A DNA stretch of 51,801 bases from a virus: positions 1 to 51,801 of IMG/VR virus record IMGVR_UViG_3300011118_000008, one strand, 5' to 3'. Position numbers and translations under genes: made by a program. Shown here one piece after another: positions 12,685 through 48,721 of the stretch (its first letter is position 1; each line of letters starts with the position of its first letter). The notes under the pieces were generated by a model. The model ran no database searches. It was not told the origin of the DNA and saw only the letters and a program-made list of their open reading frames with translations.

Positions 12685-13470
12685 ATGAATAATCTACTTA
12701 ATACTATTCAAAATGCTGATTGTTTTTCTATATTCTCACAAATACCAGATGATAGTATAGATTTAATTCCTCTTGATCCTCCTTATGGAATTGGATATGG
12801 AGGAGCTTGGGATCATTTTGAAAGTAAAGAGCATTTTCTACATTTTTCAGAGAAATGGATTTCAGAATGTTTTAGAGTACTAAAACCTACAGGAACAATG
12901 TGGAGTTTTATGGGATATGAGAATATAATTGAGTTCGTTCCCATACTACGAAAATATGGAAATGTTCATTTAGAAAACTGGGTAATTTGGGCTAGAGCTA
13001 AAGGAAGAGGCAGTTCAAAACATTTGAAATCTCAAAGGGAAGATATAATTCATATTACAAAATCTGATAAGTTTACTTGGAATAGTTTGAAAGTTTTACG
13101 AGAAGTAATTTGTCCTTATATGAAAGATGGGAAACCAAGAGGATGGTTTGTAGATGAGAATGGTAGGAGAGTTAGATGGACAGGCCTTGGAAATGTTTGG
13201 CCTTATACTTCTCCTTTTTGGAATAGTAAAGATAATAAACCTATTCATCCCGCTCAAAAACCAGTTATGATAATTGAAAGGCTTGTTCTTCTTTCTAGTA
13301 ATGAAGGAGATGTAATATTAGATCCGTTTTCAGGTTCAGGTGTTACTGCAGTTGTTTGTGAGGAGTTAAAAAGAAAATATATTTGTATTGAAAAAGATGA
13401 GAAGCATTATAAGGATTCAGTTGAAAGGTTGAAGAAATTTAAGAAAGATGCTAAAGCAAAGATTTTTTGA
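12685..13470 (+). CDS. DNA methyltransferase, N4/N6 type (beta-class order)
   Basis: 261 residues. Catalytic motif IV DPPYGIGYGG near residue 31 precedes the SAM-binding motif I ILDPFSGSGVTAVVCEEL near the C-terminus, the beta-class order of small N6-adenine or N4-cytosine methyltransferases. A PIHPAQKPVMIIERLVLLSS segment is typical. It modifies phage DNA, most likely to escape host restriction; the target sequence cannot be read from the protein. The last 21 residues reappear in diverged form beyond queC (see 14120-14182). Confidence 0.9.
   Translation: MNNLLNTIQNADCFSIFSQIPDDSIDLIPLDPPYGIGYGGAWDHFESKEHFLHFSEKWISECFRVLKPTGTMWSFMGYENIIEFVPILRKYGNVHLENWVIWARAKGRGSSKHLKSQREDIIHITKSDKFTWNSLKVLREVICPYMKDGKPRGWFVDENGRRVRWTGLGNVWPYTSPFWNSKDNKPIHPAQKPVMIIERLVLLSSNEGDVILDPFSGSGVTAVVCEELKRKYICIEKDEKHYKDSVERLKKFKKDAKAKIF
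13405..13467 (+). repeat. Direct repeat, copy 1: 3' end of methyltransferase gene
   Basis: 63 bases encoding the methyltransferase end (HYKDSVERLKKFKKDAKAKIF). A copy with 53 of 63 matching bases, counted by eye, lies at 14120-14182 on the far side of the QueC-like gene, so queC is bracketed by direct repeats. Confidence 0.85.
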
Positions 13471-14514: not shown

Positions 14515-15324
14515 TTGTGTACTAAAACAAAAAACATTGTTCTGTGTGGTAAAACAATAGATGAGTTAGAAAAATTTTCTAACAATAGTTTCGATTTAAT
14601 AATTGCAGATCCTCCTTTTAACAAAGATAAAGATTATGGGAAGCTTGTAGATGATAACATCAGCTTAGAGGATTATTATACATGGATAGAAACTTGGGTA
14701 AGATTATCATTTCAAAAGTTGAATGAAAATGGTAGTTTTTATGTTTATATAAATAGTCAGCATTTAGGAAGGTTTCAAACAATATGTGAGAAGTATGGGA
14801 TTTGGAGAAATACTATTGTTTGGCATTATACAAATCCTACTCCATCAAAAAAGAGTTATCCCAAAACCTGGTCAGCTTTTTTGTTTTTCACTAAGTCAGA
14901 TAATTACAAGTTTTTTACAAATGAAAGAATGCAATTACATCAAACTTCTTTGGAACGAAGAGAAGATAGATTAGTTAGATTATATGATTGCTGGTCAGAT
15001 ATTTCAAAATTGGTATCTGGATATTTATCACAGCAAGAATGTATTTATTATCCTGGAACGAAAAATAGAATTTTTACATATCAATTACCTTTTGAATTAG
15101 TTAAGAGAATAGTTTTAACATCTTCTGAAGAGGGAGATACAATTCTTGATTTGTTTTCACACTCAGGAACGACTTCTTGTGTTTGTAAAGAGTATGGTAG
15201 AAATTCAACAGCTATTGAGATTCATCCAGACTATTGTTTATGGATACGGAATCGTTTAGATAAGCTTCATCGATGGCGGATAGATAAAGCTCCACTTCGG
15301 CGGCAGGATAAAAAGATATTATAG
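14515..15324 (+). CDS. DNA methyltransferase, N4/N6 type, variant SAM motif
   Basis: 269 residues. Motif IV DLIIADPPFNKDKDYG (about 29-44) precedes motif I ILDLFSHSGTTSCVCKEYG (family: lDpFxGSGTT), so this is another beta-class N6/N4 methyltransferase. Pro and Gly in the SAM loop are replaced by Leu and His (DLFSHSG), which may alter binding. It starts with TTG at 14515, right after the preceding stop, with only a weak TAAGG upstream. It differs from the first methyltransferase except at the motifs and probably recognises another sequence. Confidence 0.85.
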   Translation: MCTKTKNIVLCGKTIDELEKFSNNSFDLIIADPPFNKDKDYGKLVDDNISLEDYYTWIETWVRLSFQKLNENGSFYVYINSQHLGRFQTICEKYGIWRNTIVWHYTNPTPSKKSYPKTWSAFLFFTKSDNYKFFTNERMQLHQTSLERREDRLVRLYDCWSDISKLVSGYLSQQECIYYPGTKNRIFTYQLPFELVKRIVLTSSEEGDTILDLFSHSGTTSCVCKEYGRNSTAIEIHPDYCLWIRNRLDKLHRWRIDKAPLRRQDKKIL

Positions 15325-34324: not shown

Positions 34325-35422
34325 ATGTATACAAGTAACGATCCTATGTTTGAAGATAGTATGAAAGATTTTGAAGCAATAGAGAATGATAAGAATAAGA
34401 ATGTAGATGAGCAGGAAGAAGTGGAAGAGGATAAGATAGATGAAAAAGAGTGGATATGGACTAAACGGAAACTTCAAAATGCAATAAATGATATTAAAAT
34501 TAGATTGCAACGTATAGATCCTGCTTCCTTTAAGAGTAAAGAATCATATAATGATACAAAGTCATCTTGGGAAGCTCAAATAGAAGAATATGAAGCTGCT
34601 ATGGAGAGTCCTGAAACTATAGAGCAATTCAATCAAAAGGAAAAAGAAAAGAGGTATGCGGAAGTACGAAAGATGGCTACAGAAGAATCCAAATCCAATG
34701 AGCAGGAAGAGGTGAAGGAGCAGAAGGAAATTCCTGTTGGATTTGATATCAATGGAGTTGAGATAAAAAAAGGTGATGAAGTTTCTACTTCTGATGCTCA
34801 TCCTATTCAGGGTACAGTTAGTACTGTTTGGGATAATGGCTGTGTTGATATTGAATATACTAGTGGTCCTGGAGGCCCTCTTGCTGATACTTTTGATATT
34901 AAAGGTCATGGAGTTCAGAAACTGGATGTTGAAGAGAAAACTAATGAGCAGGAAGAGGAGAAAATACCTCCTGGAGCAGTTTCTAGAGCACGTGGAGCAG
35001 AGGTTGTAACTGCAGGTGAAATAGAACGTTATAGAGAAAGAGCTGAAAACTCGATGGGAACTCCTTCTGAATTATTAATTCAAAGAAGTCAGCTGTTGAA
35101 AAAACCATTAACCAAAGATCAGCGTGAGTTGGTAACTGGGGGAGATAAATATTTGAAGGAATGGATTGGTGATTTATCCGTACGAAGCGGGAGAGATAGC
35201 CCTTATGAAACTATGTGGATTATTTCAGGTCTTCCTGATGATATTTTGAAGATGTGTGAGGAAGCTAGTATAGAAATGGGAAAAGGAGAGGGGATTCCTT
35301 CACATGAATTTGAGGATATGCTTTCTTCACTTCAAGAATTATATGATCTTTCTGAGGATGTTCTTGATTCTTCTGTTGAGCTTTCTGGTGAAAATGATGT
35401 TGCTTTTGATATAGGTTATTAA
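34325..35422 (+). CDS. Acidic modular protein with EQEE linkers and SH3-like domain
   Basis: 365 residues, very acidic. Modules: N-terminal region, linker NVDEQEEVEED (about 26), a helical stretch to about 115, linker ESKSNEQEEVKEQKE (about 121), an SH3/KOW-like domain (GVEIKKGDEVSTSDAHPIQG, about 140-200), linker KTNEQEEEK (about 207), and a helical C-terminal domain (SELLIQRSQLLKKPLTKDQR, IISGLPDDILKMCEEAS). The linkers match those of the large proteins at 40134 and 43681 at protein and DNA level, so this is probably a head-assembly protein of the same system. AAGGGA start. Confidence 0.7.
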   Translation: MYTSNDPMFEDSMKDFEAIENDKNKNVDEQEEVEEDKIDEKEWIWTKRKLQNAINDIKIRLQRIDPASFKSKESYNDTKSSWEAQIEEYEAAMESPETIEQFNQKEKEKRYAEVRKMATEESKSNEQEEVKEQKEIPVGFDINGVEIKKGDEVSTSDAHPIQGTVSTVWDNGCVDIEYTSGPGGPLADTFDIKGHGVQKLDVEEKTNEQEEEKIPPGAVSRARGAEVVTAGEIERYRERAENSMGTPSELLIQRSQLLKKPLTKDQRELVTGGDKYLKEWIGDLSVRSGRDSPYETMWIISGLPDDILKMCEEASIEMGKGEGIPSHEFEDMLSSLQELYDLSEDVLDSSVELSGENDVAFDIGY

Positions 35423-35519
35423 GGAATAACAAATGAGTTTATTTGAGTTTATGGAGAAGAGAAGGTGGATGAACTTCAAACTATAGTAGAAATGAATAGG
35501 AGGACAAATCATTAGTTGG

Positions 35520-35759
35520 ATGGTCTATTTAGTTGAGTGTAGGGATGGTTCAATCTATTGTGGAGCTACCAATAATATTATAAAACGTATAAAAGTGCAC
35601 AATGCTGGGAAAGGTTCTAAATATACAAAGTCAAGGTTGCCTGTAACCTTATTGTTAACAAGTAGGATGATGTCTAAGAGTGAAGCCCTTAGGTTAGAAC
35701 ACAAAGTAAAGAAACAAAAGGCAATAGCAAAAGTAAATTACTTAAAACAGATTACATAG
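35520..35759 (+). CDS. GIY-YIG nuclease domain protein (UPF0213/Slx1-like)
   Basis: 79 residues, a minimal GIY-YIG domain: VYLVECRDGSIYCGATNNII (the two motif halves VYL and YCG), RIKVHNAGKGSKYTKSRLPV with the catalytic Arg, and SKSEALRLEHKVKKQK with the metal-binding Glu. As in YhbQ-like proteins, it may cut branched DNA. The ATG at 35520 is 17 bases from the nearest GGAGG; an ATT at 35511 (giving ISW before the Met) sits at normal distance and could be the real start. Confidence 0.88.
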   Translation: MVYLVECRDGSIYCGATNNIIKRIKVHNAGKGSKYTKSRLPVTLLLTSRMMSKSEALRLEHKVKKQKAIAKVNYLKQIT

Positions 35760-35774
35760 TTGTACTAAAGACTT

Positions 35775-36020
35775 ATGACTAAAGATGAAAAAAAAGAATT
35801 CAAAGAAATTTGGTTGGAAATTGAGAATGTAATAACTACAATCGATCCTCACTTTCATCCAGTTTCGCAATTTAAAAGGCCTGATAAAGTTGGGGCTGGA
35901 GAACTTAAACTTCTTCTTCAATTTTTAAGGATACAAATTAAATTGTTACTCCACGATAATGAGTCAATGAGAAGAGAACAAGATTCTCTTAGAATTATGA
36001 TAGAGAAACAAGCAAATTAG
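35775..36020 (+). CDS. Hypothetical helical protein
   Basis: 81 residues, KDEKKEFKEIWLEIENVITT followed by a helical C-terminal LKLLLQFLRIQIKLLLHDNE with leucine heptads; probably a coiled-coil dimer. No family recognised. Confidence 0.6.
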   Translation: MTKDEKKEFKEIWLEIENVITTIDPHFHPVSQFKRPDKVGAGELKLLLQFLRIQIKLLLHDNESMRREQDSLRIMIEKQAN

Positions 36021-36032
36021 TAGGCGGATACT

Positions 36033-36248
36033 ATGGATGAAATAATGGATGTGGGATCATTAACTGACAGAGAATTACTTTTGGTAATATACACACAGTT
36101 AAAAAATCATCTTCATCATCATGATGATTCTACAAAAGCAGCATGGGCTGTAGCTAAGATAGCTTTGGCTGCTGCATTAACTGGAACTACTACGTTTGTT
36201 GTAGGAGTTTTACTTATACTAATACGATTTGGTTTATTTGCACAATAG
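36033..36248 (+). CDS. Small protein with C-terminal membrane helix
   Basis: 71 residues. A soluble N-terminal part SLTDRELLLVIYTQLKNHLH with a His cluster (HLHHHDD), then a C-terminal transmembrane helix (LTGTTTFVVGVLLILIRFGL). Common phage type (ltdrELLl.vy..l.nHlhhh) of unknown role, in some phages linked to lysis modules. Confidence 0.65.
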   Translation: MDEIMDVGSLTDRELLLVIYTQLKNHLHHHDDSTKAAWAVAKIALAAALTGTTTFVVGVLLILIRFGLFAQ

Positions 36249-36294
36249 GAAGATTAAATAATTTATTGTTGATTAAAGGAATAAAAATAATATA

Positions 36295-36519
36295 ATGATT
36301 ACAATAGCATTTGACATAAAAGATTTAGATTATCTTGATTTTAAGGAAAGTTTTTTAAGAGAAAATCCTCTGCCAGGAGATTCTTTTTTAACTGAAGATG
36401 AATGGATAAAGGAATGGGGTCGAATGCAATATTTATCTGCTGTAGAAAGAGGAAAGAAACGATTAGCAGAAAATGTTGTAGTAGATCCTGGTATTATATC
36501 ATGTTCGTTCAAGAGTTAA
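36295..36519 (+). CDS. Hypothetical protein
   Basis: 74 residues, acidic N-terminal half (FDIKDLDYLDFKESFLREN) and a helical AVERGKKRLAENV. It overlaps the next gene by 19 bases. No clear ribosome binding site and no family. Confidence 0.55.
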   Translation: MITIAFDIKDLDYLDFKESFLRENPLPGDSFLTEDEWIKEWGRMQYLSAVERGKKRLAENVVVDPGIISCSFKS

Positions 36520-36887
36520 GACACGAAACGGAACAAACTGTAAGAGTTGGAGTATTGCTTAAAAAGACTAATAATAATCCTTTAGAACCAATATATGGAG
36601 CTTTGTTAAATTGGTTTTATTGGAGGTATCTGGTAAAAGCAGATGAGGCACTAGTTGATATTGTAAATCATGAGTGGAGTGATATTCCATGTTGTGAAGG
36701 TTTATATTATTTGACATTTACTGTTTTGGATACAAGTATTAAAGGACCATTAACTCTTTATATTCATGATGATAATGTATTAGGTAAACCAATACTAATG
36801 CATTTTATGGTAATTGATAAGAATACTTATGATTCAAAATATGGAAATAATTTATTAAAAACAGAGCCTGAGGCTCAATTAAGTTAA
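36501..36887 (+). CDS. Putative virion protein, beta-sandwich type
   Basis: 128 residues from the ATG at 36501 (the open frame upstream is out of keeping with it). The pattern VRVGVLLKKTNNNPLEPIYG, CCEGLYYLTFTVLDTSIKGP then LTLYIHDD resembles the two following proteins: a beta-sandwich unit with a conserved G(L/I)Yxxxf turn. I read the three as related structural modules of the head-to-tail block. Confidence 0.55.
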   Translation: MFVQELRHETEQTVRVGVLLKKTNNNPLEPIYGALLNWFYWRYLVKADEALVDIVNHEWSDIPCCEGLYYLTFTVLDTSIKGPLTLYIHDDNVLGKPILMHFMVIDKNTYDSKYGNNLLKTEPEAQLS

Positions 36888-36902
36888 AGGAAGGGTTATG
36901 TT

Positions 36903-37319
36903 ATGGCGGAAAAGATTTACAAAGTAAATGAACCAACTACAATAGTGTATCAAGCTCCCAATGCAGAATCTGGATTGGGGGGGGTCGTTGCTGAGTTAGT
37001 TCTCCCAAATGATTTAAAAGATTCTAATTTTCCTGATGAAATACTTGCAGAAATAGGAAACTCTGGGATTTATAAAGGTTCGTTTACTCCTGATCAGGAG
37101 GGTGAATGGAAAGCTATTTGTCATAAAGCTGATGGAGATGGTCAAGTTGTGAAACGTTTTTCAGTAGGTCTTCATAATGTTCATAGTGTTGGTCAAGCGG
37201 TAGGTGGATTGAATGCTGGAATTGATATATTAGATGACAAAGCTGATACAACTCATTCTAAGTTGGATGATATCAACACTAAAGTAAGTTCATTAGATAC
37301 TCCTCCTATGGTGAGTTAA
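36903..37319 (+). CDS. Putative virion protein, Ig-like beta domain
   Basis: 138 residues. VNEPTTIVYQAPNAESGLGG, then NSGIYKGSFTPDQEGEWKAI, the GIYxgsFtPdqeGeW pattern of small Ig-like or decoration domains in phage virions. The C-terminal part (IDILDDKADTTHSKLDDINT) is helical and could form a trimeric stalk. AAGGAAGGG start. Confidence 0.65.
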   Translation: MAEKIYKVNEPTTIVYQAPNAESGLGGVVAELVLPNDLKDSNFPDEILAEIGNSGIYKGSFTPDQEGEWKAICHKADGDGQVVKRFSVGLHNVHSVGQAVGGLNAGIDILDDKADTTHSKLDDINTKVSSLDTPPMVS

Positions 37320-37350
37320 GATAACTTCCAAGAAAGTTTAAGGTGGAGTT

Positions 37351-37662
37351 ATGGCTGAAATATATCCTCTTGGGAAAAATAGAATTTTTTATAGACCTCA
37401 AGGTTTTATAGTGGGTTTGTTACTTACTGTTGATATGATAAATCCAAGATTAAAACTGGATAATCAAAATAGTAATAATGATAAACTTGAACTAATTGAA
37501 TTTGGCGATGGATTATACTATTTTGATTATCTTTTCTCATTAGAAGGAACATACATTGGTACGTTTTATGAGAATGGAGTGAAAAAAACATCCCAGGCTT
37601 TCAGTACTAAAAGAATTCCAGCATTTTCTGAACCTTTTAGAGGACCTCAAGTAATTGGATAG
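37351..37662 (+). CDS. Putative virion protein, Ig-like beta domain
   Basis: 103 residues with the same plan as its upstream neighbour: GKNRIFYRPQGFIVGLLLTV, GDGLYYFDYLFSLEGTYIGT. Likely a one-domain member of the same structural family. AAGGTGGAG start. Confidence 0.6.
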   Translation: MAEIYPLGKNRIFYRPQGFIVGLLLTVDMINPRLKLDNQNSNNDKLELIEFGDGLYYFDYLFSLEGTYIGTFYENGVKKTSQAFSTKRIPAFSEPFRGPQVIG

Positions 37663-37692
37663 TTAGATTAATTTATTGGTTAAAAGGATGTA

Positions 37693-39576
37693 ATGGCTGA
37701 ATATACAATAGATAGTGTACAAGATTTAATTGATTTTACTTTACTTACTGGAAAGTTCTACGGAATATTATGGAAGGATAATATATTTAATCTCACTACA
37801 GATTTAGATATTAAAGATGCAGATCCTTTAGGTGATGGTTCTGGATGGTTGCCTATTGGTGATAATAATAAAGTTTATTTTAATGGATTTTTTAATGGGC
37901 AGGGTCATGTTATATCTAATATGACTATAAATCGAAGTGCCAACTTTCAGGGATTTTTTGGTTCAATTGATCCTGTTAGTGGAAATGGAATTGACACTTT
38001 TACTAATGCAGCAGCAACAAATGAGGGTGGAAGTGTTAAGATTACTGAAGCAAGTAAATTTGATAGAACAAGAGTTGGAATGGAAGTGAGTGTAAGTTGG
38101 CATGATGCTACCTATGCTGATGGTTGGTATGATGTAATTGATGTTGATTCTAATGAGAATTATATAGTAATAGATTTAGCTTATGTTGGAGATATAGCTT
38201 CTGGAATTACTGGTTCAGTGGGTAGAGGTGATTCTTCTCTTACTGATAATCCTATTAAGAATTTAGGATTGGAAGATATCAACATCACTGGAGGTAGCAC
38301 TATTGGAGGAATGATTGGTAGCTGCCTAGGTTTTAATATAATTGCTGGTTTTCCTGTAAAGAATTGTTATGTTACTGGAAGTATAATAGGTACGCGGCAG
38401 GCCGGCGGCTTTATAGGTGGTTCTAATAACGGTTATTTTTTGAATTGTTATACTGATGTTGGTATAACTATTAATTCGATAGATGGTCGTTGTGGGGTAG
38501 GTTCTTTCGTTGGTTCAGATTATATAAATACTGATTGTGTTAATTGCTATGGTATAGGTTTAATCACACATAATGGAGATATAAGAGATAAAACTTTTAT
38601 TGGAGGTTTGTGTGGTGAAGTTGATTATGATATAGTAGATCATACTAATGATGGTGTTGTGACAGAAGGAGCTGGAGGAAAGGTTTTGATTACCAAAGCA
38701 GGAATATTTGATGAAGCTGCAGTGGGAATGCATGCTGGAATAGATTGGAATGATGTTAATTATACAAATGGTTGGTTTGAAATACTTGCTAGTGATGATA
38801 ATGATACTGTTCTTATTGACGTAGATTTTAATGGTAATATAGCTTCTGGAGTTGATGTTGATATTTGCGATCCTTCCGGTATAGATTATGCTACAAATTC
38901 ATTTTGGGATAAAACAACTACAGGAGTAGATGTTGATGGAAGAGGAGATGGAGATGCTACTGGTAAAACAACTGCTCAGATGAAGAAGGAGGCAACATTT
39001 ACTAATTGGGATTTCTCCACTCCTATATGGTGGATAACAGAAGATTCGTCCTATCCTCAGCTACAAGTGTTTGGAAAAAATCCTGGTCTTCCATCACAAG
39101 CAACTAATCCAAGTCCTATAGATAATGCAACAGATGTTGCTGTTGATACTATGCTATCCTGGATAAAGGATTCTGGAGATAATGTTCTTGTATATTTTGA
39201 TAAGAAAAGTGAACATAATCCTCCTACTACTAAAGTGATAGATGATTCAGATGAGATAATATATGATCCTCCAGTTGATTTAGCTGTTGATACTGTTTAT
39301 GTTTGGAGAGTAGATACCAAAAATGAGAATGGAACAACTACAGGAGACCAATGGGAGTTTACTACAATAGGTGGTGAATTGGCTATTCCTAGATTAGTAA
39401 AAGGAGATTTATTAAATTCTGAACAAGGCAAATCTAAATTAGTGAATGATATAGATTTAACGGGATATATTTGTCCAAGTGAGGAGGATTGTAATAAAGA
39501 TTGTAAATTAATGAATGTTCCAAATGCTTTTCATCCTGGAACAATAGATACAATAATTGATTTTAGTAATGATTAG
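37693..39576 (+). CDS. Adhesin-like virion protein: GLUG repeats, two inserted domains, FN3-like end
   Basis: 627 residues. GLUG-type adhesin repeats (FNGFFNGQGHVISNMTINRS, IGGMIGSCLGF, AGGFIGGSNNGYFLNCYTDV, FIGGLCGEV) build a beta-helix. It is interrupted twice, at about 101-178 and 316-393, by the same 78-residue domain (GGSVKITEASKFD... and GGKVLITKAGIFD..., each with an adyAdGWyd/tNGWFE turn and IASG end). After a closing WWITEDSSYPQLQVFG come an FN3/Ig-like domain (about 466-555; TDVAVDTMLSWIKDSGDNVL) and a C-terminal tail with CPSEEDCNKDCK. Probably a head fibre or adhesion decoration protein. AAAGGATG start. Confidence 0.8.
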   Translation: MAEYTIDSVQDLIDFTLLTGKFYGILWKDNIFNLTTDLDIKDADPLGDGSGWLPIGDNNKVYFNGFFNGQGHVISNMTINRSANFQGFFGSIDPVSGNGIDTFTNAAATNEGGSVKITEASKFDRTRVGMEVSVSWHDATYADGWYDVIDVDSNENYIVIDLAYVGDIASGITGSVGRGDSSLTDNPIKNLGLEDINITGGSTIGGMIGSCLGFNIIAGFPVKNCYVTGSIIGTRQAGGFIGGSNNGYFLNCYTDVGITINSIDGRCGVGSFVGSDYINTDCVNCYGIGLITHNGDIRDKTFIGGLCGEVDYDIVDHTNDGVVTEGAGGKVLITKAGIFDEAAVGMHAGIDWNDVNYTNGWFEILASDDNDTVLIDVDFNGNIASGVDVDICDPSGIDYATNSFWDKTTTGVDVDGRGDGDATGKTTAQMKKEATFTNWDFSTPIWWITEDSSYPQLQVFGKNPGLPSQATNPSPIDNATDVAVDTMLSWIKDSGDNVLVYFDKKSEHNPPTTKVIDDSDEIIYDPPVDLAVDTVYVWRVDTKNENGTTTGDQWEFTTIGGELAIPRLVKGDLLNSEQGKSKLVNDIDLTGYICPSEEDCNKDCKLMNVPNAFHPGTIDTIIDFSND

Positions 39577-39587
39577 AGGATATTTAA

Positions 39588-40082
39588 ATGAGTTATATTG
39601 ATCAAATTATGTATGATGCCGGTGGGCATACTGGGAATGAATATTACATTAGGATTATTAATCGTGGAGGAGGCATTTGGGATCCAAATGATAAAGAATT
39701 GAAAGATGAGGCTGATATTACTTGGGATGAGTCTGTTGATGATTTGGTAGAAGAGGGTCTTACAGGAGCATTTCCAGTTATTATTCCACATGATTCGAGG
39801 ACGAGGGATGATATATCATTTGCAGACTATGGTAAAGCCTATGCAGATTTAACTCCTGAATATGGTGAAGACTATGATGATCTAACAGATCCTGAGAAGG
39901 CTATTGTTGATGCACAGGTAGCTCAGAAGGAAGCTGTTGATGCAAAGTTTGATTTAATAAAAAATCTTCCTGGAGGTTTATATGATGTTATTGTTTATAA
40001 ATATGAAGGGAGTACTGCTCAGAATACCGACAATGTAGAAAAACAATACAGTTTGAAGCATGGTTCAATCTTTGGTTTTTAG
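39588..40082 (+). CDS. Putative virion protein
   Basis: 164 residues, acidic. TGNEYYIRIINRGGGIWDPN is followed by a helical acidic part and LPGGLYDVIVYKYEGSTAQN, a beta unit (GlYdvivYk) seen in phage structural proteins. GAGGATATTTAA-ATG start. It lies directly behind the adhesin-like gene and before the giant modular protein. Confidence 0.65.
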   Translation: MSYIDQIMYDAGGHTGNEYYIRIINRGGGIWDPNDKELKDEADITWDESVDDLVEEGLTGAFPVIIPHDSRTRDDISFADYGKAYADLTPEYGEDYDDLTDPEKAIVDAQVAQKEAVDAKFDLIKNLPGGLYDVIVYKYEGSTAQNTDNVEKQYSLKHGSIFGF

Positions 40083-40133
40083 AATATAGATTTAAATCTT
40101 ACTTAAATTTTTTACTTAAATAGGTGGATAAAA

Positions 40134-43100
40134 ATGGATAAAAGAAATTATTTTGATTTGTTAAAATCATCTGATGGGGCTAATAAGGATAATCAGGAAA
40201 CTGATTTTAGCAACTTGATAGATGAATGTAGAGAGTCTGCTAAGAAAGAGATAGATGAAGGTATAGATTATGGAGATTACTCTGCAGTGGATGAGCAAGG
40301 GGAAGAAAAATTAACAGCCAGTTTGGTGATGGATATCGCCGGAAGCCTATCTGGCGAGCAAGGAGAGAAAGTCAGAATATCTGCCATTACTCGAGAGGTG
40401 CAAAGAAGTACAGGTGTTGATTCTGAGAAGGTAAGTAAATTTGTTCGAAAGATTTTAGCAAGACAAGGTTGGGATGTTTCTCCAATGGAGTCTAAAGTAG
40501 ATGAAGATGTCAAATCTGATTTAATAGATATTGGTAAATCAAAGCTTGGATGGGCTGTTGCTGAGCAGTTGAAAGATATTCTTGATGATCCTACAGTAGA
40601 TGGTATTGAGAGTGCGGAATTAAATTCTAATGCTGTTAGGATGATTTACCAATTCTTAAAACCTAGGCCAGAAGAAGAAGCTAAAGAAGCTACCGAGGCT
40701 ATTGAGGAATGGGTTGAAGAAGGATATGGAGATCCTGATGTTCTTGAATCCAAAGTAGATGAACAGGAATTTCCTGAAGAAGAATTAGAGAGGCCGGAGA
40801 AGCCTCGTAGAGCAGAACCTAAGGAAGAACCTGATCCAGATGCTCCTCCTGCTCCTCCTGAAGAAGTAAAAGAAGAACCTCGACCTATGGAGATGAGAAA
40901 AGAGTATCTTGGTAAGACAGATGATACCCATTTTTACTTTCTTACTGTTGAAGGAGATACAGGTGAAGTAGATGATTTTGTGATTACAGATCAGGAAGGT
41001 GTGAAGAAGTACTCTGCTAAGGAACAGAATATTGAGGTTACTGGAGAAAGTACAGCAGAGTTTCTTATTAATGCTATTCGAGATATAGATATTATGCAGA
41101 TAGAGCGTAGTATTTTCATGAAATATATTTATCCTGAACTTATCAAAGAAGGACCTGAAGAGGAGATTATAGAGGAACCAGAAGAGGAATCAGAAGAAGA
41201 ACTTGAGAAGAAACCATTGGGTCCTGAGGAGGAAGAGGAGGAACTAACAAAAGAATCTAAAGTAGAGGAAAAGAAGCCCATTCCTACATGTCCTAAGTGT
41301 GGCAAGAAGCATTGGCCATTTCAAAAGTGTAAGGATGTTAAGGAAGTAGATGAGCAGGAAGAGGCAGAACCAAGATATCCAGGGGATGTTTGGAAATTAG
41401 AAACTGCAGAAGAAGATTCAGCTATAACTTCATTAGGATTTATTTGTGAAGAAGCACTTGAAGGAGATGTTGAACAGCAGAAATTATTAGAGGAGATTTT
41501 TGAAGAGAAGTGGGAATATATTAAATCTAAATTAGAAACAGAAGGTAGTGCTCATTATGTTTGGTGGATGGATGGAGTGCACAAGTTTGTGAAAATGCAT
41601 GAAGGTGAATTTAATGAGATGAAGGAAAATGCTGCTAACTGGCGGGAGGTAGTAGACAAAGCTAAACTATATAAGATGAAAGTGGAGGATGAAGAAAGTT
41701 CTGGATCCAAGAAAGAAGTGGAAGAGAACTATCTTATTGAAATGAAAGTAACAGATGATGGAGGAAATGCATTTGATGTTTATCTTATTGATGATGGAAC
41801 ATTAGACACTGTTATAACTATTAGTGGAAAAGAGTTTAGATTTAGTCCCGAGTTTGCTTCTATGTGGAGGAGTGAAGAAGGGGATTTGTCTGAAGAAGGT
41901 TTAAGAGAACTTGCGCTTGATGCTCTTTCTAATCTTGAACAGGAAGAATATGATGAGCTAATTGGTATGGCAGCAGCAGAGAAGATAGAAAAGGAAAATG
42001 CTGCTGAAAAGGAATCTACCGGGGATGAAAGTCCTGAATCTTATATTGAGGGAAAGGATCAACTTGGTGTAAGAGATGGATCAGGACCTCCTGGTGGAGG
42101 TATTGGAAGGAGAAAACAAGCTGATGAGGAATGCCCTTATGAGAGTGAGGAGACTAATGAAGTAGAAAGTTCTGTTAAAGATATTGAAGCAGAACTTGAT
42201 ATACTCGATCAGATGAGTGTGAAAGAACTTATGGATGAGGTTGGAGAAGGAAGTAAGACAATGCCTGAAAAAGATGATCTTATTGATGCTGTGATGTATC
42301 GTAAGTTTGGTGATGAATATAAAAGTTATGTCAAGCGGCAGGTTGGATTAGAAAAGAAAACTAATAAAGATAAAGTAGAAGAACAGCATCTTGATGTATC
42401 AAGAGTTGAAGATGATGAACTTGTTGCTAAATATAAGGAGTATCAAGAAGTAATAAATTCAGGCCGTTCTGATGCTTGGCTTGAAACAGCAGTGGCTGAT
42501 ATGGCTGAAGAGATTAAGAAAAGAGGATTAGATATAGAAGAATTAAAGAATGAAAACAAAGATAAAGGGGATAGTAATATGAATGAAAAGAAAAGTCCTG
42601 AAAGTTTAGTTAAGGATGCTGAGAAGTATGAGGCAGCAGCTAAGAAAGCTCGTAAAGATGCTGCAGACTTAGTAAAGGATGAAAAGGCAAGAGCAAAGGA
42701 TGCGAAGAAAGTTGAGGATGAAAAGGCAAAGAAGAAAGCTAAAACTGATGAAGGTAAAAATCCAAAAGCAACTGATAGTCCAGAGAAGAAGATTAGGAAG
42801 TTGGCAGAAGATGAGGTTAAGGGAAGCACATTAGCTGATTTACAACAGCAATTGAATAAGGAGGATGGAACAAAAAAAGTTTATGTTTTTGATTTTGATT
42901 CTAGTAATTACTATTATGTTGATAGTGTAACTGATGAGGAAGGAGTTGTTTTAATCTATGTCGAACTAACAGATAGACCAGAAGAACTTGAGGAAAAAAA
43001 GCTGGTAGAAGGTGAAGATAAAGTTAATGAAACAGATGTTGCCAAGGGAGTGAAAGCATTAATCAAGTTAACAAAGGAAGCTCTTGCTGCTGGTGAGTAT

Positions 43101-43460
43101 AATAAAGCAGCTGAATGGTGCCAGAAGTTAGCTGAGGTAGAGAATGTAGTTCCTTCGGAAGCTGAAAGAGAAGCTGATAAAGTAGAATTTGATAAGGATG
43201 AAAAACCAGAGGATAAGGAAGCAGAAGTACCTACTGAGGGTAAGGATCAACCTGGTGTGAGAGATGGGACAGGCCCAGCTGAGGGTTCTTTCCAAAGGAA
43301 AACAAAAGGTGATTTAGGTAAAAGAAAAGAAGCTGGTGAAGAGTGCCCGAATGAAAATAAGGATAAGAAAAGCAAGATCCAGGTAGAAAATTCTATGGAT
43401 ATTACTGAAAGGAAGAGTATGGAAAGATTACATGGTTTATCCGATCATCTAATATCATAA
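40134..43460 (+). CDS. Giant acidic modular head protein with SKVDE linkers
   Basis: 1108 residues, strongly acidic. Modules are separated by linkers: ESKVDED (119), ESKVDEQEFPEEE (205), ESKVEEKK (374), EVDEQEE (404). Recognisable pieces: two small helical domains in the first 200 residues; an alpha/beta unit (TDDTHFYFLTVEGDTGEVDD); a zinc knuckle CPKCGKKHWPFQKC (near 384); two glycine-rich units EGKDQLGVRDGSGP and EGKDQPGVRDGTGP, each followed by an EECP stretch; and long alanine/lysine helices. No enzyme motif is seen. Position just before the protease-scaffold gene and the shared linkers suggest a capsid or internal-head protein processed or assembled with it. AGGTGG start. Confidence 0.7.
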   Translation: MDKRNYFDLLKSSDGANKDNQETDFSNLIDECRESAKKEIDEGIDYGDYSAVDEQGEEKLTASLVMDIAGSLSGEQGEKVRISAITREVQRSTGVDSEKVSKFVRKILARQGWDVSPMESKVDEDVKSDLIDIGKSKLGWAVAEQLKDILDDPTVDGIESAELNSNAVRMIYQFLKPRPEEEAKEATEAIEEWVEEGYGDPDVLESKVDEQEFPEEELERPEKPRRAEPKEEPDPDAPPAPPEEVKEEPRPMEMRKEYLGKTDDTHFYFLTVEGDTGEVDDFVITDQEGVKKYSAKEQNIEVTGESTAEFLINAIRDIDIMQIERSIFMKYIYPELIKEGPEEEIIEEPEEESEEELEKKPLGPEEEEEELTKESKVEEKKPIPTCPKCGKKHWPFQKCKDVKEVDEQEEAEPRYPGDVWKLETAEEDSAITSLGFICEEALEGDVEQQKLLEEIFEEKWEYIKSKLETEGSAHYVWWMDGVHKFVKMHEGEFNEMKENAANWREVVDKAKLYKMKVEDEESSGSKKEVEENYLIEMKVTDDGGNAFDVYLIDDGTLDTVITISGKEFRFSPEFASMWRSEEGDLSEEGLRELALDALSNLEQEEYDELIGMAAAEKIEKENAAEKESTGDESPESYIEGKDQLGVRDGSGPPGGGIGRRKQADEECPYESEETNEVESSVKDIEAELDILDQMSVKELMDEVGEGSKTMPEKDDLIDAVMYRKFGDEYKSYVKRQVGLEKKTNKDKVEEQHLDVSRVEDDELVAKYKEYQEVINSGRSDAWLETAVADMAEEIKKRGLDIEELKNENKDKGDSNMNEKKSPESLVKDAEKYEAAAKKARKDAADLVKDEKARAKDAKKVEDEKAKKKAKTDEGKNPKATDSPEKKIRKLAEDEVKGSTLADLQQQLNKEDGTKKVYVFDFDSSNYYYVDSVTDEEGVVLIYVELTDRPEELEEKKLVEGEDKVNETDVAKGVKALIKLTKEALAAGEYNKAAEWCQKLAEVENVVPSEAEREADKVEFDKDEKPEDKEAEVPTEGKDQPGVRDGTGPAEGSFQRKTKGDLGKRKEAGEECPNENKDKKSKIQVENSMDITERKSMERLHGLSDHLIS
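42048..42144 (+). repeat. Coding repeat GKDQ-GVRDG-GP, copy 1
   Basis: Encodes EGKDQLGVRDGSGPPGGG and a following ADEECPYE. A diverged second copy lies at 43236-43354 near the end of the same gene. Confidence 0.75.
43236..43354 (+). repeat. Coding repeat GKDQ-GVRDG-GP, copy 2
   Basis: Encodes EGKDQPGVRDGTGPAEG and, after an insertion, AGEECPNE. Matches copy 1 at 42048 in layout and in most codons of the core. Confidence 0.75.
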
Positions 43461-43566
43461 TCCATTCTTTAAAGTAAACTGATTACAGTAAAGATGTAGA
43501 AGATAGTAGTAGGGATGTAATCTTTGGATTGTAGTAGACGGTCGAGGGCTCAATTCCTTTGGCTTT

Positions 43567-43640
43567 GGGCCAGTAGCTCAACTAGGGAGAGCACAGCACT
43601 TGCAATGCTGATGTTGTCGGTTCGAGCCCGGCTTGGTCCA
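43567..43640 (+). tRNA. tRNA-Ala(UGC)
   Basis: 74-base cloverleaf read by eye: acceptor GGGCCAG with TTGGTCC (two G-T pairs), D-stem GCTC/GAGC, anticodon stem CAGCA/TGCTG around loop CTTGCAA (anticodon TGC), five-base variable loop, T-stem GTCGG/CCGGC around TTCGAGC, discriminator A. The 3' CCA is not encoded. It lies in the 220-base gap between the two giant head genes. It would support translation of GCA/GCT-rich alanine codons. Confidence 0.92.
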
Positions 43641-43680
43641 TTTAGATAATTAGATAAACTAATATCGGAGATAATAAAAA

Positions 43681-46600
43681 ATGATACTTAATGAACGAAT
43701 TTTATCAAAACCAATTATCGAGGAAGTATCAACTGAGGAATTACCTGAAGGTGTACTTAGTCGAGTGTCCTATCTCATCTGCAACATAGGCAAAAGGAAT
43801 GCTAATAACAGAGTTTATGAAAGAGCTGTTTGGGATAAAGTATTTGGAAAGGATTTACAAGAGCAGATGATAAGGAGGGCACTTTTTGGTCATGCTGAAC
43901 ATCCTGATCAGACTCAATCTAATCTTGAAAAAACTAGTCATGTTATTTTCGAGATGAAGATAGATGATAAAGAGGTTTGGCAGAGAATGGATATTCTTGA
44001 TACTCCCGGTGGACGTATTGTGGATACTCTTATTAGAGCTGGATGTCAGGTTGGTGTAAGTACCCGAGCAGAAGGAGATCTAGAAGAAGCAGAGGATGAT
44101 ACTGGTTCTTATCAGCGAGTTATTCCTGAAAGTTATAACTATGTGACTACAGATTTTACAGCTGATCCGAGTACTTTTGGAACTGTCCCTGTTGATGTGA
44201 AGAGGAATATTGTATCTGAAGTTAGTAAAGAGTTGCAGGATAAAAAGTTAAATGGATCTGAAAGACAGTTTGCTCAACTTATTCTTGAGTCTATGAATTG
44301 TCAAGGTAGTGAATGTGTGGTAGAAGGAGCAAAAAAGATAGCTAAGAGGATGAAGGAAATAAAAGAGGGTGTTTGGGCTTTGCCAAATACTGTTGCTAAA
44401 GCAAAGAAACTTGCTGAGTTAATGAAGGAACCTTTGAGTAGTGAAGTAGCAGTAGAAAATTTATATGATGTACTTGGTGATGATGAACTTTGGGATGACT
44501 TTAAGTATAAAGGAGGTACTCCAAGAATTGATGATGATGTAAGGCCTTTGGTTAAAAAGAGAGTTAGGCAATATCTGAAAGATTATAAAGAAGATCCAAA
44601 AGGTTTCAAACAGAAACTTGATCCTGAAGCAGAAAAAATATTGAAAGGCTTGGTTGTGGAGCAGAAGACTATAGAAAGTTTGGTTAGGGATAAGTTGATT
44701 AAAATTGGTACTGAACTTAAGTATGGTAATAAGGATGCTAAGGTAGAGAAGATAGAAGAAGGTAAAGTATCTATTTCAATGCCTGGAGCAGATTCAAGTG
44801 GAGGTAAAATAATAGATATTGATGGTGCAGCATATGTTACAATACAACCTGATAATTCTATAATTATACAACCTGACCGAGAACCTCCTTTACCTACACC
44901 TGCTCCAGATGAAATACCAGAAGAACCTCCAAGAGTTGTTCCTGATTCAGCTGATGCTATTGTAGTTAGTGATGATGAAATTCCTGAAGGGAAGAAACAA
45001 TTTGGTAAAGAGAGCATTGTAGTAGGGGATATTGTTAAGATAGAAGAAGGAGAATATAAAGGAAGAGAAGGTAAAGTAACTAAAGTTGATGAAGGATCGA
45101 TAGGAATAATTCTTGATACTGGAGTAGCAGTTCAGATTGAAGATTCTACGTCAATTAGTATTACTATAGCTCCACCGCCTGTAGAAGTTCCAGAGGAAGA
45201 AATAGAAGCTATGGAAGCTGCTGGTCCTCTGCCTATTGAGAAAGATATTCCTGAAAGAAAGGTTGTTATGGGAACTGAAGAAGAGAAGTTTGATGATGAA
45301 TCAGAAAGTGGTTGGTCTACTCTAAAGGATATTTCTGGATTATCTAATGATGATCTTATGAATTATATTGATTATTGGGAAAAAGCTGTAATGTCAGGAG
45401 ATTCTCTAAATGTTGATCAGGCAAAGGCAAATCAAACTCGAGCTCGTAAAGAGTTGAGGGTTAGAGGAATTACACAAGCTACTGAGTCAAAAGTAGATGA
45501 AGCTAAAGTAGTTCAAAAGGATGATGGATGGTATGTTGTATCTCCTGCTGGTAAAGATCTTGGTGGGCCTTATCCATCAGAAGGAGCAGCTAATTTAAGA
45601 AAGAAGGATGTTGAGTTTTATGCAGCTAGTAGAGAATCTAAATTAACTGAAACAGAAGATATCAAAGCGATGTATAAAGCTGCCAAACTTCCTACTCCTG
45701 ATGGTAAAGGAATTCATACGGAAGCTTTTCATGAGCTTGCTATTAAAATAGCTAAAGGATATGTTGAGAGTGGGGATAGCCCAGAAGAAGCTCTTGATAA
45801 AGCATATCCTACTGCAATGAAGCAACTTGGAAAAGAAAAGGCAGTGAAGAAAGCTCATCAAAGCAGTGAAGCTAAAGTAGAGGAAGCAGTTAGGGTTGGG
45901 GATAAGATTAAGTTTAGTAAATTTTCTTATCCAAATACTGCTGGAGGAACTGGAAGTGGTGATACTCATCCAATTTCTGATTTAGATACTTATTTTGATG
46001 GAGTAGCAACTGGTGTTGTTGTAAAGGAGTGGGATGATTATGAGATTGGTCAAGTTATCCATGTTGAGCTTGATGATAAAACTTGGGATCTTATTAAGGA
46101 TAAGGCTAAAAAGAACATTGCTTATATAAGTGAGTTTGATCTTGTTGAGTTCAAAGTAGATGAAGTAGATAAAGAATTCAATCTTGGAGATAAGTTTGAA
46201 TACAAAGGTAAAGAGTATAAACTTGTATATCAGGATATTCAACAAAAATATGTAGATGCTCCCCCGAGTATTGTTGGGATTGATGGAGAAGATTCTGAAG
46301 GAAATGAGGTTCATATTGATTCAGATGATTTTGGTAAAGTAAGAGTAAAAGAATCAATCTCTACTACAGTTAAAGAAATCAAAGATTTACAAGTTAAAGA
46401 AGCTTCTATAAGAGCTGAAAGAGATAAGGCAATTGAACTTCTTGAGGAACTTACAAATGAGAATCAACAACTTCAGGAAAAGGCTAGAAAAGAAAAAATA
46501 CTTGAAGTTAAAATTCTTATTAATAAGATGAGTAAAGTTTTGGAAGATAAGGAGCAGGAGATAAATGCTCTTATATCTAAACTTGAAGAGAAGGTTAAAA

Positions 46601-47187
46601 TTGCTGCTGATTTAAAAGAACAACTTGAAGAGAAGGTTAAAATTGCTGCTGATTTAAAAGAACAACTTGAAGAGAAGGTTAAATTAGTTTCTAAAGTAGA
46701 TGAGCGATTAAATAGAGTAAAAACTAATTTGTCAAATAATGTTAAGAGCTTAAAGAAATCTGCTATAGTTACTAATGATAAACATGAAAAGACTTTGTTA
46801 GAAGTAAAGGAAAATCATCAGAAGAAATTAAATGAAACAGTTAAATTGTTAGAAGAAAAAATAGAAATATCTAACAAGGAGACAGAAAAGAAGGTAAAGG
46901 AAGAAGTTACTAAAGAAGTTACAAAAGAGTTTGTTAAGAGTTTTATTGAGTATAGGCTTTCTGAAACTGGTCTAAAGGTTGATGATAATTCTCGAGCACT
47001 TCTTGAGAATTGTAAGTCACTGGAAGAGGTGGATGATCTTTTGGATGAGGTGGTGGATGCCAGTAGGAGGAGTGCACTTCACTCTGAATCAATAACAGGT
47101 ATTCATGTTGCTAAGCAAGTAGTTGTTGATCCAGAAGAAGAGAAAGCTAGGCGTCAAGTAAATAATGTATTTGAAGGTATGGGATAA
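43681..47187 (+). CDS. Prohead protease-scaffold giant fusion protein
   Basis: 1168 residues. About 1-185 is a T4 gp21-like prohead serine protease: CNIGKRNANNRVYERAVWDK, catalytic His in LFGHAEHPDQT, DTPGGRIVDTLI, catalytic Ser in GVSTRAEGDL, and YVTTDFTADPS. Then come a helical domain (about 195-310), an SH3/KOW-like domain (VVGDIVKIEEGEYKGREGKV, about 446-490), further small modules with linkers ESKVDE (602), EAKVEE (730), FKVDE (824) and SKVDE (1004), and a long coiled coil (about 890-1060) like the T4 gp22 core scaffold, with a 14-residue tandem repeat. In most phages protease and scaffold are separate or nested genes. It is followed directly by the capsid protein. GGAG lies 11 bases from the ATG. 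Confidence 0.85.
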   Translation: MILNERILSKPIIEEVSTEELPEGVLSRVSYLICNIGKRNANNRVYERAVWDKVFGKDLQEQMIRRALFGHAEHPDQTQSNLEKTSHVIFEMKIDDKEVWQRMDILDTPGGRIVDTLIRAGCQVGVSTRAEGDLEEAEDDTGSYQRVIPESYNYVTTDFTADPSTFGTVPVDVKRNIVSEVSKELQDKKLNGSERQFAQLILESMNCQGSECVVEGAKKIAKRMKEIKEGVWALPNTVAKAKKLAELMKEPLSSEVAVENLYDVLGDDELWDDFKYKGGTPRIDDDVRPLVKKRVRQYLKDYKEDPKGFKQKLDPEAEKILKGLVVEQKTIESLVRDKLIKIGTELKYGNKDAKVEKIEEGKVSISMPGADSSGGKIIDIDGAAYVTIQPDNSIIIQPDREPPLPTPAPDEIPEEPPRVVPDSADAIVVSDDEIPEGKKQFGKESIVVGDIVKIEEGEYKGREGKVTKVDEGSIGIILDTGVAVQIEDSTSISITIAPPPVEVPEEEIEAMEAAGPLPIEKDIPERKVVMGTEEEKFDDESESGWSTLKDISGLSNDDLMNYIDYWEKAVMSGDSLNVDQAKANQTRARKELRVRGITQATESKVDEAKVVQKDDGWYVVSPAGKDLGGPYPSEGAANLRKKDVEFYAASRESKLTETEDIKAMYKAAKLPTPDGKGIHTEAFHELAIKIAKGYVESGDSPEEALDKAYPTAMKQLGKEKAVKKAHQSSEAKVEEAVRVGDKIKFSKFSYPNTAGGTGSGDTHPISDLDTYFDGVATGVVVKEWDDYEIGQVIHVELDDKTWDLIKDKAKKNIAYISEFDLVEFKVDEVDKEFNLGDKFEYKGKEYKLVYQDIQQKYVDAPPSIVGIDGEDSEGNEVHIDSDDFGKVRVKESISTTVKEIKDLQVKEASIRAERDKAIELLEELTNENQQLQEKARKEKILEVKILINKMSKVLEDKEQEINALISKLEEKVKIAADLKEQLEEKVKIAADLKEQLEEKVKLVSKVDERLNRVKTNLSNNVKSLKKSAIVTNDKHEKTLLEVKENHQKKLNETVKLLEEKIEISNKETEKKVKEEVTKEVTKEFVKSFIEYRLSETGLKVDDNSRALLENCKSLEEVDDLLDEVVDASRRSALHSESITGIHVAKQVVVDPEEEKARRQVNNVFEGMG
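46580..46683 (+). repeat. 42-bp tandem repeat, about 2.5 copies
   Basis: Encodes QLEEKVKIAADLKE repeated in the scaffold coiled coil; the first two units are identical apart from the first base. 42 bases equal 14 residues, two heptads, so each copy lengthens the coil without breaking its register. Confidence 0.95.
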
Positions 47188-47200
47188 AAGGGGTAAAAAA

Positions 47201-48721
47201 ATGACTGATATGGAATTAGTACAGTCTCAGTTAAAGTCCCTACAGGATCAGCAAGAAGCGCTGATGCGTATTCCTCGAATTAAAAAGTATCTGGGCGTGG
47301 TTAATGAACACGTTAAAAATAATCAGGGTCGTGATATGACGATCTATGAGAAGCGTAACGTGGCTCAGTGTCTTTACAATGCTGTTATTGATACAGGTCT
47401 GAAAGCAGGAACTCGGTTGTTTGAGACTACAACTGAGGATAATGTTGCCTTTTTAGGTATTCAGCTCCCTGTTATTGCAGCGTTGCTGCCGTCGCTAGCT
47501 CTTAATGAGATAGCGGTTGTACAGGCAATGGATCGAAGAATTGCAGCTGTGTTTTATCTTGATGTGAAGTATGGGTCAGTGAAAGGTAATGTTAATAGAG
47601 GTGAAGATGCGGATACGATGCTAGGTGCAAAGTCCGGTCATAATGTTGGTAAAAGTGGCCGAAGATTTGCAATGGCTCGTGTTGTTCATGAACCTATTGA
47701 TGCTGGTGATGGTTTTTGTAGTGGTACTGTTGAGTATGCTCCCGGGCTGATCAATCTTGAAAATGTTAAGGTTGAGACGGTTGCAGATATTGGTACTATT
47801 GATGAGGCTGCAACTTTACTGGGTTCTAGTAATGCTAGTGGAGCAATTACTGGTACTGGTATTACTGGTACTGGTTCAATTGATGCTGCTGGTGCTTATA
47901 GCATGACTATTACAGGTACTACTAGTGCTGATGTTATCTACATCACTTATGATTATCAGTATGACCTTCCTGTAGATTCTTCAGGTAATAAAGATGGCGT
48001 TCCTGAAGTTGATGTGTCTGTAACTCAGTCTACAGTGGAAGCAATTGATTTTCCGTTGAGGGCAAAGTACAGTATTGGTGCCCAGATTGATATGATGAAA
48101 GCTCACGGGATTGATCTTGAGTCGGAGCTCGTCAAATACCTCGGGGGAGAAGTCAAATTTACTATCGACCAGGTAGGTTTGGACATGATTGATGATGCAG
48201 CAGCAAGTGATGATGCTGCACATGGAATTGATGATTGGGATGCTCGCCCAGGTTTGGGTGAACCGTGGCTGTGGAAGAAAGTTGAAATCAAAGACCGTTT
48301 CGAGCAAGGCTCGAACTACATCATTGAGAAAACAAAACGTGGTATTGGTAACTTTATTCATTGCGGTAATGATGTTGCTCGTGTGATTCGACAACTTGAT
48401 TCATTTAAACCGCGTAGTGCTGCTGGCAATATTCCAACAGGTCCAATGGTTATTGGTGATCTTGATGGCCGGGTTGTTATACAGAATCCATTCAAGGCAA
48501 GGGCTGCTTATACAATGGGATTTAGAGGTTCTTCATATCTCTATGCGGGCTTTATCTACGCTCCATATATTCCATTGTTCACCACGCCGACTCTGATTAC
48601 TTCTGACTTGATTGCTCAGAAGGGTTTTCTTTCGAGTGCAGGTTTTAAGGTGACCAATGCAGGTATGTTCACCGAGGGTGCAATCACAAGTCTTGGTACT
48701 GGTTATGTCAATCCAGCATAG
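47201..48721 (+). CDS. Major capsid protein, T4 gp23-like
   Basis: 506 residues from the ATG at 47201 behind AAAGGGG (the open frame extends 12 codons upstream). FLGIQLPVIAALLPSLALNE, VVQAMDRRIAAVFYLDVKYG, FPLRAKYSIGAQIDMMKAHG then IDLESELVKYLGGEVKFTID are the HK97-fold landmarks of the T4 group. An insertion at about 210-255 (AITGTGITGTGSIDAAGAYS) replaces the usual loop and could be a surface domain. The N-terminal 60 residues may be removed by the prohead protease. Codon choice here is more GC-rich than in the neighbours, as expected for a highly expressed gene. A strong terminator follows. Confidence 0.93.
   Translation: MTDMELVQSQLKSLQDQQEALMRIPRIKKYLGVVNEHVKNNQGRDMTIYEKRNVAQCLYNAVIDTGLKAGTRLFETTTEDNVAFLGIQLPVIAALLPSLALNEIAVVQAMDRRIAAVFYLDVKYGSVKGNVNRGEDADTMLGAKSGHNVGKSGRRFAMARVVHEPIDAGDGFCSGTVEYAPGLINLENVKVETVADIGTIDEAATLLGSSNASGAITGTGITGTGSIDAAGAYSMTITGTTSADVIYITYDYQYDLPVDSSGNKDGVPEVDVSVTQSTVEAIDFPLRAKYSIGAQIDMMKAHGIDLESELVKYLGGEVKFTIDQVGLDMIDDAAASDDAAHGIDDWDARPGLGEPWLWKKVEIKDRFEQGSNYIIEKTKRGIGNFIHCGNDVARVIRQLDSFKPRSAAGNIPTGPMVIGDLDGRVVIQNPFKARAAYTMGFRGSSYLYAGFIYAPYIPLFTTPTLITSDLIAQKGFLSSAGFKVTNAGMFTEGAITSLGTGYVNPA

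Follow-up and report, generated by a model that had tools for sequence, protein, structure and literature searches.

Head genes of the window

The window, by which we mean the whole stretch of DNA analysed here, comprises 51,801 nt of viral sequence on one strand (positions 1-51,801 of IMGVR_UViG_3300011118_000008) and shows the T4-like gene order portal - core proteins - protease/scaffold - capsid. The genes considered here, g34 (34325-35422), g40 (40134-43460), g43 (43681-47187) and the major capsid gene that follows g43 (47201-48721), lie on the plus strand, as do all features described within them. The capsid protein was assigned to the Gp23 family by its match to PF07068 (E = 1.1e-31), and a profile search retrieved T4 gp23 chains.

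g43 encodes a 1168-aa fusion of a prohead protease, a module cassette and a coiled-coil scaffold. Its N-terminus (first 205 residues, 43681-44295) matches Peptidase_S77 (PF03420, E = 1.6e-10, above the curated cut-off) and the head maturation protease family phrog_207 (6.7e-30), and His74 and Ser127, positions which we take to be the catalytic residues of a gp21-type protease, are invariant in an alignment with T4 gp21 and LIS04; as judged by homology, this domain is a prohead protease of the T4 gp21 type. The remainder of the protein comprises a KOW-like module (45001-45168), the folded island Md (LPTPDGKG..HTxAFH, 45652-45861), a window-only module flanked by two linkers (45886-46146), a second window-only module (46165-46350) and a scaffold-like coiled-coil region of about 280 residues that is conserved in relatives (46351-47184). 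When g43 was searched for an internal start of the scaffold preceded by a ribosome-binding site, a single candidate emerged, which lies inside the protease; none was found for the scaffold. The scaffold coiled coil also holds three tandem 42-base repeats (EEKVKIAADLKEQL, 46580-46705), two of them identical and the third (76%) ending in an SKVDE linker. A tRNA-Ala (TGC) gene is located between g40 and g43 (43566-43641).

g40 encodes an acidic, modular head-core protein of 1108 aa between the portal and protease genes, the position of T4 gp67/gp68. Its family core is the folded island Ma (40863-41144), which has no flanking strict linkers and was found in 18 relatives, in a g40-type gene every time. 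It is followed by a zinc-ribbon-like module (CPKCGKKHWPFQKC, 41289-41330), the folded islands Mb (41733-41972) and DDELVAKY (42390-42533), the module Mc (43020-43154), and two copies of a module EGKD..RDGxGP (42048-42152 and 43236-43370). A Foldseek search of the g40 model against PDB and viral models gave no match at E<=0.001, and Pfam scans of the single modules gave none above cut-off. g34 encodes an acidic protein of 365 aa with VDEQEE, SNEQEE and TNEQEE linkers.

Upstream, the portal gene (20628-23621) codes for two halves (residues 35-275 and 686-888) on either side of a probable intein, a stretch of about 400 residues that gave HNH-endonuclease-like matches. Probable inteins were likewise seen in the prohead protease genes of four relatives (L007 970-3666, L011 7315-9972, L012 6528-9893, L065 199-2073), as in-frame inserts of about 350 residues directly 3' of a GELDHP-type motif.

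Relatives were collected by capsid protein searches, which gave L004, L005 and 25 further loci and then L118, and by a search with module Md; L102 is the same contig as L087. Searches with whole proteins found no relatives for g43 or g34 among viral contigs, nor for g40 among phage records. L118 (JAHQJS010000001.1), the nearest relative of the window with 79% identity in the capsid protein, is a T4-like virus contig of 179 kb and for the most part collinear with it; the gap matching that between g40 and g43 holds tRNA-Thr and tRNA-Leu genes, and two related DNA methyltransferase genes of the window (phrog_67, 12685-13470 and 14515-15324) have homologues at 72-73% identity which adjoin each other there. 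The contig is binned in a MAG of the Asgard archaeon Ca. Borrarchaeum weybense, but as it encodes a family A polymerase and RecA-like, gp32-like and DnaB-like proteins, a mis-binned bacteriophage is likelier, and the idea that the window belongs to an Asgard-archaeal virus was not adopted.

A linker motif in the core proteins

The first-pass annotation had listed eleven sites with a recurring linker in g34, g40 and g43, and a linker was indeed present at all 11 positions. Full forms (ESKVDE, ESKVEE or EAKVEE) occur in g40 at 40488-40505 and 40746-40763 (both ESKVDE, in predicted disordered segments) and at 41253-41270 (ESKVEE), and in g43 at 45484-45501 (ESKVDE) and 45868-45885 (EAKVEE, opening a module missing from L004 and L118). 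Partial forms are EVDEQEE in g40 (41343-41363), EFKVDE (46147-46164) and SKVDE (46690-46704) in g43, and NVDEQEE in g34 (34400-34420). The other two linkers of g34, ESKSNEQEE (34685-34711) and KTNEQEE (34937-34957), carry S or T in place of V, a weaker motif that fits a protease site less well, and as relatives of this gene were not found its membership of the linker system is uncertain. At least five further linkers were detected: AVDEQ (40284-40298); EVEE at 41715, within EVEENYLIE (41715-41741), which ends where Mb begins; KVEEQ at 42372, its KVEE (42372-42383) preceding the DDELVAKY module; KVNE/T at 43020, where Mc opens; and ESKLTE/T opening Md (45634-45651), the slash marking the module start. 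TKVDE at 45082, within the KOW-like fold, probably matches the motif by chance.

In g40, 9 of 11 motif matches fall inside segments of low AlphaFold confidence and the other two lie one residue outside. The g43 linkers at residues 604, 825 and 1005 are also of low confidence, those at residues 652 and 732 lie a few residues outside such segments, and the KOW-like match (residue 468) is inside a fold; SKVDE (residues 1004-1008) coincides with a predicted break of the scaffold coiled coil (residues 1002-1010). Taken over the whole g43 protein, motif matches show no preference for disordered segments, and this restricts the argument from disorder.

Motifs were counted in 458 non-overlapping reading frames (155,606 residues) from the window and 27 loci, i.e. 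28 sources. ESK[VIL][DNTASE]E was observed 48 times, compared to 0.3 in shuffled and 4 in reversed proteins, and is present in 15 of the sources searched. The family consensus is E-S-K-V-N-E, V being commoner than L and I, and N commoner than D; as ESKVNE/ESKVDE is the consensus across the family, we dropped the idea that each virus has a uniform linker of its own. K[VIL][DEN]E gave 15 matches against 2.5 in 60-residue block shuffles (p<=0.001). Counts of plain [VIL]xE are hardly informative, as it is common in such acidic proteins.

Modules in related viruses

Comparison of the relatives indicates, at the level of sequence, that they gain, lose and reorder modules and exchange them between genes. 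Upstream of Mb the sequences fail to align, yet in all 11 viruses examined the module starts with [LV]xE, and in 8 of them ES[KR] stands just before it. Twelve viruses carry Mb in the g40-type gene, L103 in the protease gene instead. Md starts with [LVI]xE/T in 6 of 6 viruses, a seventh, partial match (L100) being without the Md start, and its linker reads ESAVDE/T, ELEE/T, DLEE/T, ESKVNE/T or EIDE/T in relatives. In Bacteroides phage BS162P1, Md is a stand-alone reading frame of 111 aa. The DDELVAKY module follows Mb in the window and precedes it in L004, where the zinc-ribbon-like module, unlike in the window, forms the C terminus of the g40 homologue. The EGKD module occurs in g40-type genes and, in L102 and L005, in a gene located 3' of the capsid gene.

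In g43, the protease, KOW-like, Md and scaffold parts are conserved between the window and L118, with differing, mostly linker-bounded module sets between them: from the KOW-like module to Md there are about two modules in the window and about six in L118, mostly joined by x[VIL]DE, and after Md the window carries two modules more. A stretch specific to the window, g43 residues of about 226-324, has edges without a strict linker. Some relatives (L004 14471-17233, L099 9844-12189, L097 16821-19397, L102 17170-19449, L109 19335-20999) have a third long gene with linkers, which contains zinc-ribbon-like and DUF5661 modules and lies about 5-8 kb 3' of the capsid gene, past the end of the window.

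The first-pass annotation had proposed comparing related phages for module gain or loss exactly at the joints. Right ends of alignments lie near linkers in 38 of 367 cases versus 18.8 for random Glu (maximum of 32 in 500 draws), the enrichment of left ends is weaker (28 of 422 versus 17.6; maximum of 29 in 500 draws), and the majority of alignment ends fall away from strict linkers.

A putative cleavage site shared with the capsid protein

The capsid protein contains a putative maturation site, L73-F74-E75 (47417-47425), followed by T76. E75 is invariant in 28 homologues within an otherwise variable leader, the residue two positions before it is L, I, M or V, and the residue between is nearly always F. 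Measured by the distance to a conserved Pro (when T4 gp23 was added to the capsid alignment its E65 was placed unreliably), E75 is about 17 residues nearer to the fold than E65 of T4. Several capsid sites read SKLFE, SKMFE, SKVFE or TRLFE and so resemble the linker SK[VIL]xE; the putative site [LIVM]-F-E/ matches the linker end K-[VIL]-x-E.

From the homology of the protease and the capsid protein, the enrichment of the motif, the likeness of linker and capsid site, the disorder at many linkers and the transfer of modules, we consider it rather probable that the linkers are cleavage sites of the virus's own prohead protease between small, mostly folded modules of head-core polyproteins. The first-pass annotation had named a repeated protease site as one option, and the encoded protease, the like-formed capsid site and the [VIL]xE module starts speak in its favour. 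For cleavage itself, when it takes place and what becomes of the fragments, we infer the following course. The g40 protein and the protease-scaffold fusion would be built into the prohead core, and once the shell is complete the protease would cut after the last Glu of K-[VIL]-x-E/ and, likewise, the capsid protein at L-F-E75/. The freed modules might be retained as internal or ejected head proteins, or else be removed so that the DNA has space. Because each joint would carry its own cut site and is disordered, a core gene could take up a module, drop it or pass it to another core gene cheaply, and the relatives show that such changes have been frequent.

Several observations count against this reading. 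Published T4 sites have L or I at the third position before the cut rather than V; acceptance of V is suggested by its presence in the capsid sites of three relatives (L110, L113 and L114) and by the exchange of V, L and I at the same linker. The ES prefix is not needed by T4 gp21, and the linker motif is longer than a minimal site. Linkers also occur in the third long gene downstream of the capsid gene, the edges of Ma and of g43 residues of about 226-324 lack a strict linker, and [LV]xE at the start of Mb may be conserved as part of this module's first strand and not as a cut site. The S or T in two g34 linkers and the offset of capsid E75 from E65 of T4 also count against it.

Comparison with known head-processing systems

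According to the first-pass annotation no system of this kind had been described, which is too strong a statement. T4 gp21 cleaves after L/I-x-E, and gp22, gp67 and gp68 are cut by it into several fragments (PMC9026906); in giant phages, cuts occur at S/A-x-E, with several sites per propeptide (PMC5694885, PMC10052503). Several prohead-protease sites per core protein are therefore already known, as is the fusion of protease and scaffold, from Bacillus phage SP-15 and Listeria phage LIS04 (Thornevirus).

With the T4 prohead core the window has in common the protease family S77, the gp23-type capsid protein and core proteins with several sites, in the window predicted ones, ending in Glu. Unlike in T4, protease and scaffold are one protein with exchangeable modules between them, the joints share the longer ESK[VIL]xE, and the core proteins are modular and several times longer. 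phiKZ, 201phi2-1 and SPN3US also have many sites after Glu in long head proteins, but these mostly remove N-terminal propeptides, whereas the predicted sites of the window sit between modules along the whole chain, with S/A as the third residue ahead of the cut in the former and V/I/L in the latter. SP-15 and LIS04 encode a protease-coiled-coil scaffold fusion beside a related capsid protein, as the window does; their protein has about 560 residues, and its protease and coil are not separated by a module cassette. Herpesvirus UL26 and gpC/Nu3 of phage lambda also combine protease and scaffold in one reading frame, and we know of no module cassette or shared joint in them comparable to that of the window. 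In the open-licence papers searched, we found no description of a cassette of exchangeable modules that share a joint sequence.

Alternative readings of the linkers

The linkers might instead be recombination joints acting at the DNA level, with near-identical short sequences exchanging modules and the protein sequence being secondary. The linker DNA is indeed more uniform than expected: AAAGTAGATGA with <=1 mismatch occurs 19 times in the window versus 3.5 in dinucleotide shuffles, and in the count against codon-shuffled sequences that had been proposed as a check, within-gene synonymous shuffles were exceeded by AAAGTAGATGA (5 versus 1.36, p=0.003), AAAGTAGA[TG]GA (7 versus 1.66, p=0.0005) and GAGCAGGAAGA (4 versus 0.64, p=0.0025). 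Lys-Val of the motif is encoded by AAA-GTA in 8 of 10 copies, and elsewhere in 14 of 56 Lys-Val pairs. Pairwise comparison of the window linkers gave the same codon in 36 of 49 cases (73%) versus 24 expected (50%; p=0.007, or p=0.011 with the following base fixed). The codons, said to be nearly the same each time, are thus alike to a moderate degree, about two thirds of the sameness being expected from codon usage alone. Sameness exceeded expectation in five of nine virus sequences (p<0.05; combined p about 3e-5), which would suit a recombination joint, as would the change of modules between genes and in order, the clustering of right alignment ends at linkers and the RecA-like and gp32-like proteins encoded by L118. 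Yet the codon excess is absent in the other four sequences, and the motif is kept at the protein level across viruses with different codons, Val in the linker being encoded by GTA in the window, GTT in L102 and mostly GTC in L099. Moreover, the DNA identity spans about 11-18 bases only, recent copying of a module with its linker would yield equal codon sameness, and the left-end enrichment is weak. Of the proposed joint for domain swapping, the shuffling of protein modules near linkers stands, while its DNA half gains little from these data since recent copying could account for the sameness, and we regard recombination as the main role of the linkers as unlikely.

Alternatively, the linkers could remain uncut and serve as a docking or head-targeting motif, as in the T4 capsid targeting sequence, or as plain spacers. 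The disorder of many linkers would agree with any of these roles, and for docking or targeting one may point to ES-K, whose constancy goes beyond the needs of a minimal gp21 site, and to T4, where targeting peptides adjoin the cut site (PMC9026906). Acidic spacers alone would not give a fixed hexapeptide, as is evident from the excess over shuffled proteins given above, the last four linker positions match the capsid maturation site, and one would not expect a targeting signal to recur several times within one protein and to coincide exactly with module starts, so that we consider this reading, too, improbable. That the linkers are functionless traces of recent module duplication, kept by descent, is very improbable: true duplications exist (the EGKD module twice in g40, the 42-base tandem repeat in the scaffold) and would account for codon sameness within a virus, but the motif persists between unrelated modules and across viruses with capsid identities of about 45-79%, and at a given joint Glu is retained though V, L and I replace one another. 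Some constraint on the linker is already apparent.

Implications for head assembly

A farther-reaching version of the prohead-protease reading, which we put forward as a tentative possibility, is that one large and so far undescribed group of T4-like viruses employs a standard joint with a protease site as a plug-in system: small proteins would enter the head as polyprotein cassettes, be set free by the prohead protease and move between genes and viruses through recombination in the joint DNA. If the prohead-protease reading itself is true, a tailed virus would process modular head polyproteins with its own maturation protease, and the joints would ease the exchange of head contents. Many small internal or ejected proteins would then have been missed by annotation, hidden inside long 'hypothetical' genes, and ESK[VIL]xE/ would provide a sequence rule for finding and testing such hidden proteins.
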